Source: an uncultured Acidimicrobiales bacterium (GTDB lineage Bacteria > Actinomycetota > Acidimicrobiia > Acidimicrobiales > SHLQ01). From it: 39,557 nucleotides of DNA. Each line of letters starts with the position of its first letter. Position 1 is the first letter of the stretch. The notes under the pieces were generated by a model, which was given only the letters and a program-made list of their open reading frames with translations, was not told the origin of the DNA and searched no databases. Of the stretch, positions 14,189 to 32,481 are shown piece after piece. The DNA lies in contig CALLAA010000259.1 of assembly GCA_938002955.1 (NCBI GenBank), forward strand, positions 1 through 39,557. Reading direction: 5' to 3'. Made by a program: the position numbers and the translations under genes.

Positions 14189-15502
14189 ATGACTATTGCA
14201 GAACACACCCCGTCAGAGGCCGAGATCGACGGGCTCATCGGCGGCGCCGAACGCGTCATGAGCCGCGACAACGCGGTCCTACGAATGAGCGAAGCCGAAG
14301 CCGGCGCACTTTCGCTGAGCCCGGAACACGAATTTGGTGATCAGAAGATGATCATCAATATGGGTCCCTCGCATCCGTCTACGCACGGCGTGCTCCGGTT
14401 GATGCTCGAGATGGAAGGCGAGACGGTTCTCCGTTCAAAGCCGATCATCGGGTATCTCCACACCGGTATGGAAAAGACCGGCGAGCAGCTCACCTACCTG
14501 CAAGGTGGCACCAACGTCACCCGCATGGACTACTCGTCGCCGTTGTTCACCGAGCTTGCGTTCTCGCTCGCAGTGGAGAACCTGCTCGGCCTTGAGATCC
14601 CAGAGCGTGCGACCTGGATTCGCATGATGATGACCGAGCTGAACCGCATGGCATCACACCTGTTGTTCATGGCGACCAACGGCATGGACCTCGGTGCCGT
14701 ATCGATGATGATCTACGGATGGCGCGAACGCGAGCCGCTGTTGCGCTTCTTTGAGAAGGTCACCGGCCTTCGCATGAACCACAACTACATCCGTCCCGGT
14801 GGCGTTGCCGCCGACCTGCACGATGGCTGGCAAGAAGATCTGCTCGAGTACCTCGAAATGCTCGAGCCCCGCCTCGATGAGTATCACATCTTGATGAACG
14901 GCCAGCCGATCTGGCGAGACCGTCTCCAAGGCGTTGGTGTGATCAACGAGGCCGAATGCCTCGCACTCGGAACCACCGGCCCAATCCTACGATCGGCCGG
15001 AAGTAGCTGGGACCTGCGTCGAGACATGCCATACCTCGCGTATGACCAGGTCGACTTTGCGATCCCCGTTGGTGAGTACGGCGATTGCTTCGACCGGTAC
15101 GCAATCCGCCTCGCCGAGATCGAAGAGTCGATCAAGATCGTTCGCCAGTGCATCGAGAAGATGCCATCGGGTGACTACCGGGCGCAGAACAAGAAGGTCA
15201 CGCCACCACCGCGTGGCCGAATCGACGAGTCGATGGAAGCGCTTATCCATCACTTCAAGATCTTCACCGAGGGCTTCAAAGTGCCCGCCGGTGAGACCTA
15301 CGCTGCGGTCGAGAGTCCTCGCGGCGAACTCGGCGTGTACATCGTGAGCGACGGCAGTTCGACGCCGTATCGCATGCACGTTCGTGCCCCGAGCTTTGTG
15401 AACTTGCAGACGCTCCCGCACCTGATGGAAAACGGCCTCCTCGCCGATGCCGTCGCCGTCATTTCGAGCGTCGATCCAATCATGGGTGAGGTTGATCGGT
15501 GA
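14189..15502 (+). CDS. nuoD: NADH-quinone oxidoreductase subunit D (copy 1)
   Basis: 437 residues. The 49-kDa-type subunit lines the quinone site; MGPSHPSTHG and IGYLHTGMEKTGE contain the His and Tyr known to contact the quinone headgroup in this family. It ends in DPIMGEVDR, a canonical C-terminus. An N-terminal stretch of about 50 residues precedes the core. AGGGGAT lies seven bases before the ATG. An 82-base spacer with two hairpins separates it from nuoE. Confidence 0.96.
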   Translation: MTIAEHTPSEAEIDGLIGGAERVMSRDNAVLRMSEAEAGALSLSPEHEFGDQKMIINMGPSHPSTHGVLRLMLEMEGETVLRSKPIIGYLHTGMEKTGEQLTYLQGGTNVTRMDYSSPLFTELAFSLAVENLLGLEIPERATWIRMMMTELNRMASHLLFMATNGMDLGAVSMMIYGWREREPLLRFFEKVTGLRMNHNYIRPGGVAADLHDGWQEDLLEYLEMLEPRLDEYHILMNGQPIWRDRLQGVGVINEAECLALGTTGPILRSAGSSWDLRRDMPYLAYDQVDFAIPVGEYGDCFDRYAIRLAEIEESIKIVRQCIEKMPSGDYRAQNKKVTPPPRGRIDESMEALIHHFKIFTEGFKVPAGETYAAVESPRGELGVYIVSDGSSTPYRMHVRAPSFVNLQTLPHLMENGLLADAVAVISSVDPIMGEVDR

Positions 15503-15513
15503 CGTATTGGCTC

Positions 15514-15559
15514 AGCCCCGAAGGGGCTTCCCCAAACCCGAATTTCGCCTGCGGCGAAA
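15514..15559 (+). repeat. Two perfect tri-loop hairpins between nuoD1 and nuoE
   Basis: Hairpin 1: AGCCCC-GAA-GGGGCT (15514-15528). Hairpin 2: TTTCGCC-TGC-GGCGAAA (15543-15559). Fourteen bases separate them, and no T-run follows. The GGGG of the first can alternatively pair with CCCC at 15530-15533. In an operon where most genes overlap, such a structured spacer may act in mRNA processing or stability, setting D versus E/F/G output (inference). Confidence 0.6.
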
Positions 15560-15584
15560 CGTCGCACGCAGCAAAGGTTGTCTC

Positions 15585-16229
15585 ATGAGCCGACTTTCTG
15601 ACGCCAACGTGGCGCTTGCCCACGACATCATTCGTCGCTACCCGCGGCCGAAGTCTGCCCTGATTCCGCTGCTGCATTTGGCACAAGAACAAGACGGTTG
15701 GGTGTCCGATGACGCCATGTCGCACCTCGCCGAATTGGTCGGAGTTACCCCCGCCGAGGTCAAGGGAACCTGCACGTTCTACGAGATGTTCAAGCTGCAT
15801 CCCGTTGGCACCTACATGGTCAACATCTGCACCAACTTGTCGTGCCAACTGCTCGGTGGCGAGGAACTCCTGCACCACGCCGAGGAAACGCTCGGCATTC
15901 GTGCTGGCGGCACGACCGAAGACGGCATGTTCACGATCGAGGACGTCGAATGCATTGCGGCGTGCACCGAAGCGCCATGCATTCAGGTCAACTATCGCTT
16001 TGGGCTTCGCCTGACCCACGACGACTTCGATGACATCATCGCTGCGCTTCGCGCCGGCAACACGCCCGACAAGCTCATTACGTCCAACCCCGGTGAGCCA
16101 ATCCCAAGCCACGGCACGTTGGGTCTCGCCCGCCAGACCATGACCGAAGAGCAAACGGCGCACATCATCGCCCCCGAGCAGATTCACGAAGCACCGGTGT
16201 GGCTCACCGCGGCTGCGAAGGACAACTAA
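15585..16229 (+). CDS. nuoE: NADH-quinone oxidoreductase subunit E
   Basis: 214 residues. The thioredoxin-like [2Fe-2S] subunit of the NADH-input module, with ligands C82 and C87 (CTNLSC) and C123 and C127 (CIAAC). A C-terminal tail of about 50 residues extends past the core. The ATG at 15585 is preferred over in-frame sequence overlapping nuoD because AAAGG precedes it and the N-terminus aligns with the family. Its TAA overlaps the ATG of nuoF. Confidence 0.95.
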   Translation: MSRLSDANVALAHDIIRRYPRPKSALIPLLHLAQEQDGWVSDDAMSHLAELVGVTPAEVKGTCTFYEMFKLHPVGTYMVNICTNLSCQLLGGEELLHHAEETLGIRAGGTTEDGMFTIEDVECIAACTEAPCIQVNYRFGLRLTHDDFDDIIAALRAGNTPDKLITSNPGEPIPSHGTLGLARQTMTEEQTAHIIAPEQIHEAPVWLTAAAKDN

Positions 16230-17659
16230 TGGCCATTGGTGATTACGTTCCACACGCTCCGGGCTACGTCGAGACTCCCGGCACAAAGATCGTTACCTCG
16301 CGCTTCACCTATGAAGACAGCTACACGATGGAGCGCTACGAGGCGACCGGTGGCTATGAAGGCCTCAGGGCCGCGCTGAAGCGCACTCCCGAAGAAGTCC
16401 ACGGCGAGACCCGCGACGCAACGCTTCTCGGCCGCGGCGGCGCTGGCTTCCCGGCCGGAATCAAGTGGGGCTTTTGCCCGCCAGAGGTCTGGCCCCGGTA
16501 CCTGGTTGTCAACGGCGATGAGTCCGAGCCAGGAACCTACAAAGACCGTCTCCTCATGGAGCGAGATCCACATCAGCTGATCGAAGGCTGCCTGATCGCG
16601 TGTTACGCGATTGGCTTGTCGCAGTGCTTCCTGTACGTTCGCGGCGAGATGGCGATCGCCCAGCAGCGGATCGCCGATGCCCTCAACGAGGCGTACGCCA
16701 AGGGGTACATCGGCCAGAACATTCTCGGCTCGGACTTCTCCGTCGACATCGTGCTGCACTGGGGTGCTGGCGCATACATCGTTGGTGAAGAGACAGCGCT
16801 CATCGAGAGCCTCGAGGGCAACCGTGGCATGCCACGCCTGAAGCCACCATTCTTTCCCGCAGCCGTTGGCCTCTACGGTCAGCCCACGATTGTCAACAAC
16901 GTCGAGACGTTGGCGAACCTGCCGTGGCTGATGAACAACTCCGCCGAGGAGTACAAGAAGTACGGCAGCGAAACCTCTCCGGGTACGCGCATGTTCGCGG
17001 TCTCCGGGCAAGTGAAGCGCCCGGGTGTCTACGAGGTCGAGCAAGGCGTCACCACCTATGAGGATCTGCTCTACGGCGACGACTATTGCCAGGGCATGCG
17101 CGACGGGCGCACGCTCAAAGCGTTCGTCCCCGGCGGCGGTTCAGCTCCATGGCTGTTCCCCGAACAAGTGTCATTGCCGCTCGAAGCCCGCCCCGTCGGC
17201 GCAGCCGGAACCATGCTTGGCTCTGGCGCCATCATGGTGATGGACGACTCGAGCTGTGCGGTGAAGTCCGCACTTCGCCTCGTTCGTTTTTACGCTCGTG
17301 AGTCGTGCGGAAAGTGCACGCCATGTCGTGAAGGCACCAGCTGGGAAGAGAAGATCCTCCAGCGCATCCACGACGGTCACGGCCGTCCCGGCGATATCGA
17401 GCTGCTGCTCGACGTCGCCGACAACATTTCACCCGGGCCGTACCCGGTTGCATCGGACGAATCGCAGGGCCTCGAGGCCGTGCCGTTCCCACCGAAGCAG
17501 ACCACGATCTGCCCACTCGGACCATCGTCGGTTGCGCCAATCACGTCAGCCCTTCGCCGCTTCCGCCACGAATTCGACGAGAAGATTGCGATGGCGGTTA
17601 CCACGAACCATCCCGAGATTTCTGTGGACCTCGACAGTAAAACTGAGGTCAGCTCATGA
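16229..17659 (+). CDS. nuoF: NADH-quinone oxidoreductase subunit F (NADH/FMN site)
   Basis: 476 residues. The FMN/NADH site shows GRGGAGFPAGIKW at 68-80 and NGDESEPGTYKDR at 95-107. Cluster N3 ligands are C360, C363, C366 (ESCGKCTPCREG) and C428 (TTICPLG). The gap of 62 residues between the third and fourth Cys exceeds the roughly 40 usual in the family, through a Pro-rich insertion. NuoF oxidises NADH and passes electrons into the Fe-S chain. The ATG 16229 overlaps the nuoE stop. Confidence 0.96.
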   Translation: MAIGDYVPHAPGYVETPGTKIVTSRFTYEDSYTMERYEATGGYEGLRAALKRTPEEVHGETRDATLLGRGGAGFPAGIKWGFCPPEVWPRYLVVNGDESEPGTYKDRLLMERDPHQLIEGCLIACYAIGLSQCFLYVRGEMAIAQQRIADALNEAYAKGYIGQNILGSDFSVDIVLHWGAGAYIVGEETALIESLEGNRGMPRLKPPFFPAAVGLYGQPTIVNNVETLANLPWLMNNSAEEYKKYGSETSPGTRMFAVSGQVKRPGVYEVEQGVTTYEDLLYGDDYCQGMRDGRTLKAFVPGGGSAPWLFPEQVSLPLEARPVGAAGTMLGSGAIMVMDDSSCAVKSALRLVRFYARESCGKCTPCREGTSWEEKILQRIHDGHGRPGDIELLLDVADNISPGPYPVASDESQGLEAVPFPPKQTTICPLGPSSVAPITSALRRFRHEFDEKIAMAVTTNHPEISVDLDSKTEVSS

Positions 17660-17732
17660 GGGGAACGGAGCGAAGCGCAGTGACCATGTCGACTTCGGCA
17701 GGTCTCGACCGGAAGTGTCGAGGAGTGATCGC

Positions 17733-20195
17733 ATGACAACGACTGAACCTGAAGTCGAAACCGGTGTGACGATCAATGTCGACGGTGTCGACGTCGTCGC
17801 CAACAAGGGCGAGCTGCTTATCGATGCCGCCGAGCGCCACGGGGTCTACATCCCGCGCTTTTGCTATCACCCACGTATGAAGCCGGTCGGCATGTGCCGC
17901 ATGTGCCTCGTCGAGGTCGACACGGGCCGCGGTCCCGGTCTCCAGCCGAGCTGCATGCTCACGGTCTCCGACGGCATGACCGTCGTGACCGAAAGCGAAG
18001 TCACCAAGAAGGCACAAGATGGTGTGCTCGAGTTCTTGTTGATCAACCACCCGCTCGATTGCCCGGTCTGCGACAAGGGTGGCGAATGCCCGCTCCAGGA
18101 TCAGACCATGGCGTTCGGTCCTGGTGAGAGCCGTTTCGTCGAAGAGAAGCGGCACTTCCAAAAGCCGATTCCGATCAGCGACATCGTCTACCTCGACCGC
18201 GAGCGCTGCATCCTGTGCGATCGCTGCACCCGGTTTGCAAAAGAAGTTGCCGGCGACCCGCTGATCCACTTCCAAGCGCGTGGCAACGAGACCCAGGTCA
18301 ACACGTTCCCAGAAGAACCGTTCTCGTCGTACTTCTCGGGCAACACCGTGCAGATCTGCCCGGTCGGCGCATTGACCGCAAAGCCCTACCGGTTCAAGGC
18401 TCGTCCCTGGGACCTCACCGAGACGCCGTCGACGGCCACGACCGATTCGGTCGGTTCCCGAATCACGGTTCAGAGCTCGCGCAACGAAGTGCTCCGGTAC
18501 CTCGGCGTCGATAGTGATGCGGTGAACTGGGGATGGCTGAGCGACAAGGAACGGTTCAGTTTCGAAGCCCTCAACTCCGACGCCCGGATCACCGGCCCGC
18601 TCCTGCGCGGTGATGATCTTGGCAACCCCACCGACGATGGCGACCAGCTCGTCGCAGCGTCGTGGCCACTCGCGCTTCGCAAGGCCGCCGAGGCGCTCGA
18701 TGGCGTCGCCCCCGAACGAATTGCCGTATTCGGTGGCGCTCGCATGTCGAACGAATCGCAATACGCCTGGGCCAAGCTCGCGAAGTCTGTCCTCGGTACC
18801 GACAACGTCGATGCGCAGATGGGCGATGGCCTCAGCGCCGAATTGGTCCTCGGCCTCCCACGCGCAACGATCGCCGACGCCTGTGCTCCCGGCGGAACCG
18901 TCCTCGTCATCGGCGTGGACCCCAAAGAGACCCACGGCTCGCTGTTCCTTCGCCTGCGTCACGCAGCCGAACATGACAAGGCCACGATCGTCGAAGTCTC
19001 ACCCACCGCGACCGGGCTCACGCAGTACGCGGCGCACTCGGTTCGCACGGGTCCAGCTCAACTCGCGGAGACCGTTGCGGCGCTGCTCGCCGGCACCGGC
19101 GACGACGCAGCGAGCGCAGCGCTCGCAGGCGACATCACCGTGGTCTACGGACCGGGCACCCTTTCGGCTGACCGTTCCGTCATCGAGAAGGCCATTGCGT
19201 CGATTGCCGAAGCAAAGCCGAACGCCACGTTCCTGCCATGTCTGCATCGCGGCAACATCATGGGCGCACTCGACATGGGACTCGCCCCCGGCCTACTTCC
19301 CGGACGCAACCCGCTCGGCAGCACACCAGCTGGCTGGGACAGTGCACCAACGGGCCACGGCATGGATACCGAAGCAATGCTCCGTCGGGCCGCCGCCGGT
19401 GGTATCGATGTTGCGATCCTGCTCGGCTGCGACCCGCTCACCGACTTCCCGGACGCGAAGCTCGCCGAGCAAGCGTTCAACAAGGTCGAGCACCTGATTG
19501 CCGTCGATTGCCTGCTGAACTTCACCTCGACCGGCGCAGACATCGTGTTCCCCGCTGCCGCGAGCGCCACCGAAGTCGATGGCACCTTCACGAACATCGA
19601 AGGCCGCATTAGCTCGGTGTCTCGCAAAGTCACCCCTCCCGGGACGGCTCGCCCCGACTGGATGATCGCCGCTGAGCTCGCCGCTCAGCTCGGCACCGAT
19701 CTTGGCTTTATTGACCTCGACGAGCTGTGGGCCGAACTCAACGCCGCCTCGGCGCTTCACGCCGATGTGTCGATTGCGGGCATCGTCGACGCTGGCACCG
19801 ACGCTGTTCTGCTCGCTGGATCGTCCGTTTCGGCACCGTCGGCGTCGGGGATCTCGGTTGCCGAGGACGACGGCGGAGCGGGCCTGTCGCTCGTTGTCAC
19901 CCGCAAGATGTACGACGAAGGCACGATGCTCACCTTCTGCCCATCGCTCAACGCGTTGGCTGCTGGAGCGACTGCGGCGATGAACCCGGCCGACATCGAT
20001 TCGGCGAACATCACCATCGGCGGCGATGTCACGCTCGGTAACGATGTCGGGTCGATCACGCTGCCCGTAGTGGCAAACGACGGTGTTGCACCAGGTTGTG
20101 TTGAGGTCGAATTCAATCAACCAAACGCATCGGTGGCGCAACTGCTCGATGTAGGGCGTATCGTCACGACCGTGCGAGTGGAGAATGCGTCATGA
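17733..20195 (+). CDS. nuoG: NADH-quinone oxidoreductase subunit G
   Basis: 820 residues. The N-terminal [2Fe-2S] site has C44, C55, C58 and C74; N5 has H106, C110, C113 and C119; N4 has C159, C162, C165 and C209. The molybdopterin-oxidoreductase-like domain follows, but where its extra [4Fe-4S] cluster N7 would bind (CxxCxxxC and a later Cys), the sequence has A235, D238, S242 and S270, so N7 is absent. ATG 17733 is preceded by CGAGGAGTG and gives a normal N-terminus. A 73-base non-overlapping spacer separates it from nuoF. It shares ATGA with nuoH1. Confidence 0.95.
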   Translation: MTTTEPEVETGVTINVDGVDVVANKGELLIDAAERHGVYIPRFCYHPRMKPVGMCRMCLVEVDTGRGPGLQPSCMLTVSDGMTVVTESEVTKKAQDGVLEFLLINHPLDCPVCDKGGECPLQDQTMAFGPGESRFVEEKRHFQKPIPISDIVYLDRERCILCDRCTRFAKEVAGDPLIHFQARGNETQVNTFPEEPFSSYFSGNTVQICPVGALTAKPYRFKARPWDLTETPSTATTDSVGSRITVQSSRNEVLRYLGVDSDAVNWGWLSDKERFSFEALNSDARITGPLLRGDDLGNPTDDGDQLVAASWPLALRKAAEALDGVAPERIAVFGGARMSNESQYAWAKLAKSVLGTDNVDAQMGDGLSAELVLGLPRATIADACAPGGTVLVIGVDPKETHGSLFLRLRHAAEHDKATIVEVSPTATGLTQYAAHSVRTGPAQLAETVAALLAGTGDDAASAALAGDITVVYGPGTLSADRSVIEKAIASIAEAKPNATFLPCLHRGNIMGALDMGLAPGLLPGRNPLGSTPAGWDSAPTGHGMDTEAMLRRAAAGGIDVAILLGCDPLTDFPDAKLAEQAFNKVEHLIAVDCLLNFTSTGADIVFPAAASATEVDGTFTNIEGRISSVSRKVTPPGTARPDWMIAAELAAQLGTDLGFIDLDELWAELNAASALHADVSIAGIVDAGTDAVLLAGSSVSAPSASGISVAEDDGGAGLSLVVTRKMYDEGTMLTFCPSLNALAAGATAAMNPADIDSANITIGGDVTLGNDVGSITLPVVANDGVAPGCVEVEFNQPNASVAQLLDVGRIVTTVRVENAS

Positions 20196-30007: not shown

Positions 30008-30501
30008 TCGAATCCGGCAAGCTGCCCAAGCCTCTTACGGGCTTGCTCAACATGAGCCGCAAGTACTCCCTTTGGGTGTACCAGTGGGGACTTGCGTGTT
30101 GCGCGCTCGAGATGGGCGCAGCGTTTGCGTCCCCTCGTTACGACGTGATGCGTCTCGGGGTCATCCCGTTCCCGGCCAGCCCGCGCCAAGCTGACCTCGT
30201 GGTCATCTCCGGCACGGTCACCGACAAGATGGCACCATCGATCCGTCGTCTGTACGAGCAGATGCCCGATCCGAAATACGTCATCTCCATGGGATCTTGC
30301 GCCAACTGCGGCGGCCCCTACTGGGATAGCTACTCGGTCACCAAGGGTGTCGATCAGATCGTTCCCGTCGACGTATACGTACCCGGCTGCCCTCCACGTC
30401 CTGAAGCGCTTCTCGAGGGCATCGTCATGCTCCAAGAACGTATTCAGAACGAGGACATGCAAGAGCGGTGGACCCAAGAACCGATCGTGGTGGGTGCATG
30501 A
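29998..30501 (+). CDS. nuoB: NADH-quinone oxidoreductase subunit B (copy 2)
   Basis: 167 residues with N2 ligands C34, C35 (LACC), C101 (GSCANC) and C131 (PGCPP). An additional Cys follows C101 in GSCANCGG. The ATG at 29998 lies inside the end of nuoA2. It is shorter than copy 1 and lacks the Gly/Arg-rich tail. It shares ATGA with nuoC2. Confidence 0.96.
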
Positions 30502-31193
30502 GCGACGAAACAGCTGTCGAAGAAACTGAAGCCGACGTCGTCGCAGAGGTAGACGAAGCGCGCGAAGCCCTCGTCGCCACCCTCGCTGAGGACCTTGGCG
30601 ACGGCATTGTCGAGACCTTCATCAAGCCAGGCGACGACGTGTGGGTACGCGTCACCCGAGAGGCGTGGGCCGAGACCGCAAACACCTTGCGCTTCGGAAT
30701 GGGCTTTGGCTACTTCAACTTCCTGTCGGCCATCGACTGGCAGCCGTCCCCCTATGGACGCGACATGGATTCACAGGTCGATCTGACGCTCAACCCACCC
30801 GAGGCTGAAGAAGCAGACGACGAACCAGCCACGCTCGAAACGGGATACGCCGGTGGCGATACCCGCTTTCAGGTCTTTGCCCGGGTGAACGACATCACGT
30901 CCGAGCGAGCCATCACCGTGAAGTGCGATATTCCCGACGATGATCTGTCCATCCCGACGTGGATTCCCGTGTACCCGGGAGCGAACTGGCACGAGCGTGA
31001 AGCCGCCGAGATGTTTGGCCTCACTTTCATTGGTCACCCAAATCCACGCAAGCTGTACCTGCCAGGTTCCTTTGAGGGATTCCCGATGCGCAAAGACTTT
31101 GCGCTGCTCGCCCGTCGAATCAAGCCATGGCCAGGCATCGTCGACGTCGAGCAGATGCCCGGCGAAGACGACGAAGATGGAGATGCGTCATGA
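30498..31193 (+). CDS. nuoC: NADH-quinone oxidoreductase subunit C (copy 2)
   Basis: 231 residues with [12 protein letters not shown] and [11 protein letters not shown]. An acidic N-terminus and an acidic internal stretch ([13 protein letters not shown] near 99-111) are additions to the core. It ends in an acidic tail. ATG 30498 overlaps the nuoB2 stop, and its own TGA overlaps the ATG of a 39-codon repeat frame rather than nuoD2 itself. Confidence 0.94.
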
Positions 31194-31309
31194 CCGCCTG
31201 CATCACGACCACCGGCCTTGACGATTTGAGCGCTTCGGAGGATTCAGTGACCGCCTGCATCACGACCACCGGCCTTAACGATTTGAGCGCTTCGGAGGAT
31301 AGAGCATGA
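31190..31309 (+). CDS. Possible 39-residue protein made of two tandem repeats, between nuoC2 and nuoD2
   Basis: An ATG overlapping the nuoC2 stop opens a 39-codon frame whose TGA overlaps the nuoD2 ATG, so it fills the whole spacer with the ATGA coupling used throughout the operon. The product is two 19-residue repeats, [19 protein letters not shown] and [18 protein letters not shown], then RA, each with one Cys. There is no membrane segment and no known motif. Each repeat ends in GGAGGAT, a strong ribosome site for the next start (GTG 31247, ATG 31306). It may be a real small protein, or a duplicated translation-coupling leader kept for its ribosome site. Only the reading frame is certain. 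Confidence 0.4.
   Translation: MTACITTTGLDDLSASEDSVTACITTTGLNDLSASEDRA
31191..31300 (+). repeat. 57-bp-period direct tandem repeat, two copies
   Basis: Copies at 31191-31243 and 31248-31300 (53 bases each) differ at one position (G31220 versus A31277) and are separated by TCAG; the second is followed by AGAG. The period is a multiple of three. Near-identity points to a recent duplication or strong constraint. Confidence 0.95.
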
Positions 31310-32481
31310 CCGCGACGAGTGAGTCAGAACAGCTCCGGTACATCGACCAGCAAGCCGCTGACGCCCGCGTCAACGTCGAGATCGAAACCGAGGGGATGAC
31401 CCTCAACCTCGGACCGCAGCACCCGGCTACCCACGGCACGCTTCGCATCATCGCGAAGCTCGACGGCGAACAGGTCGTCGCAGCCGAGCCGGTCATGGGA
31501 TACATGCACCGCGGCTACGAGAAGCTCGCTGAGGTGCGGACCTTCCCGCAGGTCACCACGCTGATCAACCGCATCGACTGGACCGGCAGCTTCGCAAACG
31601 AAACGCCGTTCATCCTCGCTGCCGAAAAGCTGATGGAAGTCGAAGCGCCACCTCGCGCCCAGTACATCCGCACGATCTTGCACGAGATGAGCCGCATCGC
31701 GAACGTCATGCTCGGCATTGGCGATATGGGCGTCCAGGTCGGTGCTGTTACGCCGGTCTTCTTTGCCTTCCGCGACCGTGAGTACGTGCTCAACCAAATC
31801 GAAGCTGTCACCGGTGGTCGCTTCCACCCGAACTTCGACCGCATCGGTGGTTTGAAGGACGATCTTCCCGCTGGCTGGATCCAGAACACGAAGAACGCCA
31901 TGGAGAAGGTCGAAGACTTCTGCGACCAGATCGAAACGCTGATGTACGGAAACGAGCTCTTCCAAGCTCGTACCCGCGGCATCGGCATCATTCCCAAGGA
32001 CATCGGCCTCGCCTACGGCCTGTCCGGGGTAAACATCCGTGCATCGGGTGTCGACTGGGATGTCCGGCGTGACGCAATGCCACACGGTTTGGTCTACGAC
32101 CAGGTCGACTGGAAGGTGTACACCCACCCCGATGGCGACTGCTACAGCCGCATGTGGGTTCGCCTGCAAGAGGTGCGCGAAGGCGCGAAGATCGTGACCC
32201 AGCTCCTGAACCAGATTCCGAGCGGACCGATCATGGCCAAGGTGCCTCGCATCATCAAGGTTCCCGCTGGCGAAGCGTTCGTCGAGACGGAGAACCCGCT
32301 CGGCGTGATGGGCTACTACGTGATCTCCAAGGGCGACCTCAACCCGTACCGGGTGAAGATCCGTTCTGCATCGTTCAACAATGTCTCGATCACGCCGTGG
32401 TTGCTGAAGGGCGTGTACGTGCCTGACATCATCGCCATCCTCGGGTCGCTCTATTTCATCCTGGGAGACATCGACCGATGA
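31306..32481 (+). CDS. nuoD: NADH-quinone oxidoreductase subunit D (copy 2)
   Basis: 391 residues. LGPQHPATHG and MGYMHRGYEKLAE keep the quinone-site His and Tyr; the C-terminus is GDIDR. It is shorter than copy 1 and has HRGYEKLAE in place of HTGMEKTGE. GGAGG of the second repeat is seven bases before the ATG. nuoH2 follows directly with an ATGA overlap: nuoE, F and G, which separate D and H in cluster 1, are absent here. Confidence 0.95.
   Translation: MTATSESEQLRYIDQQAADARVNVEIETEGMTLNLGPQHPATHGTLRIIAKLDGEQVVAAEPVMGYMHRGYEKLAEVRTFPQVTTLINRIDWTGSFANETPFILAAEKLMEVEAPPRAQYIRTILHEMSRIANVMLGIGDMGVQVGAVTPVFFAFRDREYVLNQIEAVTGGRFHPNFDRIGGLKDDLPAGWIQNTKNAMEKVEDFCDQIETLMYGNELFQARTRGIGIIPKDIGLAYGLSGVNIRASGVDWDVRRDAMPHGLVYDQVDWKVYTHPDGDCYSRMWVRLQEVREGAKIVTQLLNQIPSGPIMAKVPRIIKVPAGEAFVETENPLGVMGYYVISKGDLNPYRVKIRSASFNNVSITPWLLKGVYVPDIIAILGSLYFILGDIDR

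Follow-up and report, generated by a model that had tools for sequence, protein, structure and literature searches.

Between nuoC2 and nuoD2 of the second complex I operon in the window (i.e., the whole stretch of 39,557 nucleotides analysed here), a 39-codon mini-ORF is found which shares an ATGA with the gene on either side and contains a plain internal 57-nt duplication. Judged from sequence comparison, it probably acts as a ribosome relay that would restore translational coupling after expansion of an ancestral overlap of the two genes; the coupling itself we infer. A relay derived from a duplicated start-plus-ribosome-site module had been proposed in a preliminary description of this DNA and is supported by comparison, in that all eight nuoC-nuoD gaps of at least 22 nt are bridged by such a frame, and 13 of 15 gaps with overlaps at both ends are bridged by a single frame against 4.1 expected, the remainder being double relays. 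Restored coupling is a more economical claim than the boosted output of NuoD2 that had been considered there.

The frame between nuoC2 and nuoD2

The window, contig C259 of an assembly of 270 contigs that is 89.5% complete, carries two successive complex I operons. According to Pfam, the first comprises nuoC1, nuoD1, nuoE1, nuoF1, and nuoG1, and the second, located further along, nuoB2, nuoC2, nuoD2, and nuoH2. The genes nuoD2 and nuoH2 share a direct ATGA overlap at 32478-32481; therefore, unlike the first operon, the second is without nuoE, nuoF, and nuoG between them. The features of the nuoC2-nuoD2 junction are as follows.

30498..31193, + strand: nuoC2 (Pfam PF00329), upstream partner; its TGA stop (31191-31193) lies within the ATGA at 31190-31193
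31179..31182, + strand: GGAG, predicted ribosome site of the mini-ORF within the end of nuoC2, from the sequence; anti-SD pairing -6.4 kcal/mol
31190..31309, + strand: putative relay mini-ORF, 39 codons plus stop, with a -4 overlap with nuoC2 and with nuoD2, from the sequence and from homologous frames in genome G009 and, more weakly, G010
31191..31243, + strand: repeat copy 1, starting with TGACCGC and ending with GGAGGAT
31237..31242, + strand: GGAGGA, predicted ribosome site before the in-frame GTG at 31247; anti-SD pairing -9.5 kcal/mol
31248..31300, + strand: repeat copy 2, 52/53 identical to copy 1
31294..31299, + strand: GGAGGA, predicted ribosome site of nuoD2; anti-SD pairing -9.5 kcal/mol
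31306..32481, + strand: nuoD2 (Pfam PF00346), downstream partner

Both the repeat and the frame had been noted before, and both are confirmed. The two 53-nt copies, with a spacing of 57 and one mismatch, are evident in the sequence and are recovered by Tandem Repeats Finder, in which the nuoC2-nuoD2 array scores 213, the runner-up among the 16 rows for the window being 85. The frame is joined by ATGA to nuoC2 at 31190-31193 and to nuoD2 at 31306-31309; its stop TGA (31307-31309) is contained in the latter motif, the ATG of which is the nuoD2 start. Because the mini-ORF and nuoD2 lie in different reading frames, the former was rejected as an extension of NuoD or NuoC. The statement that each copy begins as a start codon plus TGACCGC holds insofar as copy 1, copy 2, and nuoD2 all open with (A/G)TGACCGC; the TG, however, belongs to the start codon. 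As had also been stated, each copy closes with a strong ribosome site, and the two GGAGGA motifs are located 4 and 6 nt upstream of the next GTG or ATG. All three starts (31190, 31247, and 31306) are preceded by ribosome sites, with pairing energies of -6.4, -9.5, and -9.5 kcal/mol, respectively, computed with a generic anti-SD. Of 200 shuffled versions of the mini-ORF region, 197 form more stable RNA folds than the actual sequence, and RNA structure as the function of the region was rejected on this ground.

The observation is real, with chance being excluded. An assembly artefact is argued against, because the two copies differ, because a homologous two-copy frame is present in the assembly of G009, and because the first 20 nt of the frame are present in G006.

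The nuoC-nuoD junction in related genomes

The comparison within the genus included 11 genomes; eight gave a NuoD-like match, and seven of these carry a nuoD2 orthologue. A search for a nuoD2 or nuoC2 orthologue in G001, G005, G007, and G008 found none. In G006, the nearest relative (NuoD2 identity to the window 0.997 over 350 residues), the contig ends 20 nt into the mini-ORF frame, before the copy number is visible. The frame of G009 has 47 codons and contains an 18-residue unit twice, and that of G010 has 43 codons, with the unit present once, together with four 5-residue repeats; either frame has ATGA at each end. Between this genome and G009, both units align with one 3-nt gap, which was equalled by 0/1000 shuffles, and the alignment of the peptides was matched by 0/2000. 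The likeness to the G010 frame is weaker (7/1000 dinucleotide and 20/1000 codon shuffles were as good), and the peptides of this genome and G010 do not align (894/2000 shuffles as good). The mini-ORF is absent at the nuoC-nuoD junctions of G002, G003, G004, and L047 (a locus from another collection), in which the two genes overlap directly instead, and it is likewise absent at 7/7 junctions read from other genera of the family. Absence of the repeat from close relatives, named beforehand as a possible refutation, thus applies by half: these relatives are without the repeat, but the direct overlap that they have kept leaves nothing to bridge.

The trees of nuoD and nuoH are in conflict over the placement of G004. 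Those based on protein and on codon positions 1+2 allow a single origin of the frame in this genome, G006, G009, and G010 (supports 86 and 71), while the all-positions tree places G004 beside this genome (support 67). The NuoC tail of G004, which ends on the nuoD ATGA, is a possible remnant of the frame. A second NuoD2-like gene, 76% identical, is present in the G004 bin (G004:C113, L010). A 31-nt match of 87% to the repeat unit is located in the same bin (G004:C5:2010-2040, L029) at the 3' end of an rplD-like gene with the acidic tail TTEAGLDASSASEEEE; spreading of the repeat unit into protein tails was rejected, this match (E 9e-4) being probably a matter of composition.

For the wider comparison across Acidimicrobiia, a strong NuoD2 match was found in 137/218 genomes of the order; eight of them were already in the set, 120 junctions were added, and nine of the lowest-ranked were left out. 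The order-level loci were joined with 80 further loci (L045 was dropped as a copy of G010) and with those of the genus and the family. Of the 213 records examined, five were unscorable, and the remainder represent 183 unique nuoC-nuoD junctions. As a rule, nuoC shares an ATGA or GTGA with nuoD in relatives: 167/183 junctions overlap directly, seven have gaps of 0-12 nt, and nine have longer gaps. All eight gaps of at least 22 nt are bridged by a frame that begins at -4 within the stop of nuoC and reaches the start of nuoD, where it ends at +4 in seven cases and at +7 in L180, the frame of which overlaps nuoD by 7 nt and not by 4. The 14-nt gap of L182 has no bridging frame. L120 was scored from its ATG start; an in-frame TTG would shorten the gap to 25 nt, with the bridge ending 40 nt past the TTG. 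The eight bridged junctions fall into five sets with mutually unrelated sequences.

Set 1: this genome, G009, and G010
Set 2: L120
Set 3: L225 and L227 (G163 and G076, genus g64)
Set 4: L210 (G207)
Set 5: L180 (G200)

Bridging frames at other nuo junctions and their origin

In a scan without coding filter, the same architecture is found at nuoD1-nuoE1, nuoF1-nuoG1, nuoB2-nuoC2, nuoD-nuoH, nuoH-nuoI, and nuoI-nuoJ, where the junction labels rest on Pfam for the window and L052 and on likeness to these for the other loci. Several bridges of this unfiltered scan lie plainly inside known genes, and the scan was not used for the bridging statistics. Two of the frames belong to the first operon of the window.

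15499..15588, + strand: second mini-ORF, nuoD1-nuoE1 (GTGA at the start, ATGA at the end), 29 codons, with two short palindromes; neighbours by Pfam
17656..17736, + strand: third mini-ORF, nuoF1-nuoG1 (ATGA at both ends), 26 codons; neighbours by Pfam

The palindromes of the nuoD1-nuoE1 frame are AGCCCC-GAA-GGGGCT and TTTCGCC-TGC-GGCGAAA. In G001, the corresponding frame is a triple tandem repeat.

The nuo-region loci comprise 472 gene pairs with 158 gaps of 13-250 nt, 17 of which are strictly bridged and 141 unbridged, as counted with a simple and crude gene caller. By placing the start of nuoE1 too far downstream, this caller missed the nuoD1-nuoE1 frame of the window. Where a gap has an overlap of the ATGA/GTGA type at both ends, it is bridged by one frame in 13 of 15 cases, against an expectation of 4.10 under a null that excludes in-frame extensions; 13 such bridges were reached in 0/20,000 simulations. 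The 15 gaps are not fully independent, since some rows are related species. In L058 and L066 (nuoD-nuoH), there are two serial mini-ORFs with ATGA at both ends of each, on account of which the ATG-to-ATG distance is 1 mod 3. On 40 other contigs of this genome (391,659 bases, about a tenth of the genome), 1/65 gaps is bridged, and in G003 (378,241 bases) 3/62, one of these being nuoB2-nuoC2. Bridging is rare there; therefore, the excess is seen in nuo operons and not at gaps at large.

If a segment spanning an ATGA overlap were duplicated, the new frame would resemble the downstream gene at its start and the upstream gene at its end; it would reach the second ATGA only when the duplicated length is 2 mod 3. 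Some frames in other species clearly arose by such a duplication of the stop/start junction. A junction repeat is present at no more than 10/1000 shuffles in 15/30 frames tested, in a test that is slightly favoured by the fact that both windows compared contain RTGA by construction. The plainest junction repeats are those of L118, L225, L227, L120, L063, and L052. In L118 (nuoD-nuoH), the C-terminal residues of NuoD are repeated at the end of the mini-ORF, which is a plain gene-junction duplication; the end of nuoC is repeated in L225 and L227, ribosome site and start are repeated in L120, and L050, L052, L054, and L063 (nuoD-nuoH) are junction duplications. At the nuoC2-nuoD2 site, the junction footprint is weak (123/1000 shuffles; 19/1000 under other settings), and for the window frames at 15499-15588 and 17656-17736 it is not significant in the shuffle test. 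For this reason, we only presume birth by junction duplication here, where the first expansion in this clade would have been of that kind, whereas the internal 57-nt duplication is plain.

Length change that keeps the frame is ongoing at nuoD1-nuoE1. This genome and the contig of G006 orthologous to it, at 95% identity, share the same 29-codon frame; the G006 bin also contains another contig, more diverged, on which the frame has 43 codons and an internal repeat. The two nuoD1 loci of this bin (G006:C199 and G006:C349; L011 and L017), with 43 and 29 codons in their mini-ORFs, are 89-93% alike; either the bin is mixed or the second copy is genuine.

Proposed relay, rival explanations, and known systems

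The proposed scenario would start from the ancestral ATGA/GTGA overlap of nuoC and nuoD, an arrangement by which translation is coupled through termination-reinitiation. Extra DNA bringing its own start and ribosome site would have expanded the overlap in the clade to which this genome belongs, and the expansion would be tolerated because the stretch is an open frame from the ATGA of nuoC2 to the ATGA that starts nuoD2. On finishing nuoC2, a ribosome would start again at 31190, translate the 39 codons up to the stop at 31309, and from there begin nuoD2, with the coupling as the presumed trait under selection. The second copy (57 nt) arose later, when the entire start-plus-SD unit was duplicated in frame.

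That the frame encodes a translated micro-protein, e.g., an accessory complex I peptide with a 19-residue repeat, is unlikely. In its favour, frame and unit are common to this genome and G009 at the DNA and the peptide level, and divergence is lower than at the silent sites of nuoD. The frames differ at 15/72 aligned positions between G009 and G010 and at 37/105 between this genome and G009, and the 4-fold sites of nuoD are 47-50% identical among these species (0.47 for G009 and G010). By this measure, the DNA of the mini-ORF is more conserved than nuoD silent sites, which a mere relay does not require; in part, this conservation is accounted for by the ribosome sites. The frames of genus g64 (L225-L227; pN/pS 0.18/0.39, control 5%) likewise lean to the micro-protein and hint at protein-level constraint. 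On the other side, pN/pS in the genus of this genome is about 0.9 on 24 and 35 codons, with few sites, and is no different from random change: the values are 0.34/0.39 for this genome and G009 and 0.20/0.22 for G009 and G010, and the number of nonsynonymous changes was equally low in 27% and 49%, respectively, of the draws of a random-mutation control. Codon usage and GC by codon position of the mini-ORF are unlike coding, though the real frame is still the most coding-like of its three; the adjoining nuoC2 and nuoD2 ends are coding-like. Its peptide has no Pfam match and does not align with that of G010, and the frames of other lineages are unrelated in sequence. A pN/pS near 1 together with codon usage that is not coding-like fits with a frame that is kept open rather than with a protein. 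The Cys-containing micro-subunit put forward in the preliminary description thus finds no support in pN/pS, which had been advised there as a check, in codon usage, or in distribution, the frame being absent from the relatives named above and 167/183 nuoC-nuoD junctions overlapping directly; its Cys is replaced by His in G009 and G010.

Could the duplication be neutral and without effect, nuoD2 starting independently from its own strong ribosome site? The GGAGGA upstream of nuoD2 (-9.5 kcal/mol) and the many unbridged gaps elsewhere are in line with this, but the bridging of 8/8 nuoC-nuoD gaps of at least 22 nt and of 13/15 gaps with overlaps at both ends against 4.1 expected, with double relays as the remainder, makes it distinctly improbable. 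That the element is a mobile dispersed repeat of the MIRU kind, which inserted itself into the ATGA overlap, is to be regarded as highly improbable. It would share the architecture that the excerpts consulted on MIRUs describe, in which a short repeat is inserted at a start codon and its internal ORF has -4 nt coupling; however, in a search of this genome (89.5% complete) at E up to 10, no second copy was found, the next match of the 116-nt element having E 0.4 over 21 nt, and no insertion of the unit at another site was seen. For the palindromic nuoD1-nuoE1 frame, the matches elsewhere are all short (best E 0.013), and 15/30 frames tested repeat their own junction.

Beyond the relay at nuoC2-nuoD2, a wider proposal is conceivable, albeit doubtful. 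Junction duplication would time and again give rise to relay mini-genes, which at their beginning resemble the gene that follows and at their end the gene before; operons for multi-subunit complexes would be forced to keep these frames open and would be a cradle for micro-proteins, and in this genus the relay peptide may begin to be retained for itself. If the relay reading itself is right, an insertion between coupled genes would be tolerated when it is in turn a coupled frame, a rule that natural genomes would have tried out repeatedly; evolution, in addition to reporters, could then serve to test the distance rule for termination-reinitiation. A duplication of 2 mod 3 across an ATGA overlap would be a simple birth route for short operon ORFs, the resulting frame being translatable at once and protected by the neighbouring genes. 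Annotation pipelines may be expected to miss or misread relay frames.

The earlier claim that no nuo operon with such an element had been described is to be qualified. In a search of titles and abstract openings with few subscription journals, neither such a frame in a nuo operon nor junction duplication as a source of bridging frames was found; the general architecture, however, is described for mycobacterial MIRUs. Coupling at ATGA overlaps is established: according to the excerpts consulted, 13/14 tested overlapping pairs are strictly coupled (PMC6728339), and in six pairs a spacer of ~20 nt left almost no coupling (PMC10666635). The same -4 overlap is found here, at both ends of the mini-ORF; different from such direct coupling is the interposition of a very short third frame, or of two in L058 and L066. 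Leader mini-cistrons and intergenic small ORFs, reported in excerpt to aid downstream translation (PMC4833913, PMC8092293, PMC8708949), are alike in that a short ORF influences or promotes translation of what follows, whereas the nuoC2-nuoD2 frame overlaps a long gene by 4 nt on either side and has its start-plus-SD unit in duplicate. In the part consulted of a 2025 review (PMC12548453), MIRUs are characterized as repeats of apparent mobility, which insert at start codons and carry an internal ORF with -4 nt coupling; between senX3 and regX3, the units measure 77 and 53 bp (PMC4213456, likewise in excerpt). As far as these sources go, common to both systems are a short repeat unit between co-directed operon genes (57 nt in two copies at nuoC2-nuoD2), the -4 spacing of an internal ORF (here ATGA at both ends, with coupling presumed), and tandem copies as in senX3-regX3. 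The nuoC2-nuoD2 element differs from MIRUs in being without dispersed copies in its genome (next E 0.4 over 21 nt; assembly 89.5% complete), and in several other species the frames copy their own junction and not a common element. Summarizing, the type of element is known in outline, and what appears to be new is its recurrence in complex I operons, the occurrence of serial relays, and birth by local junction duplication.
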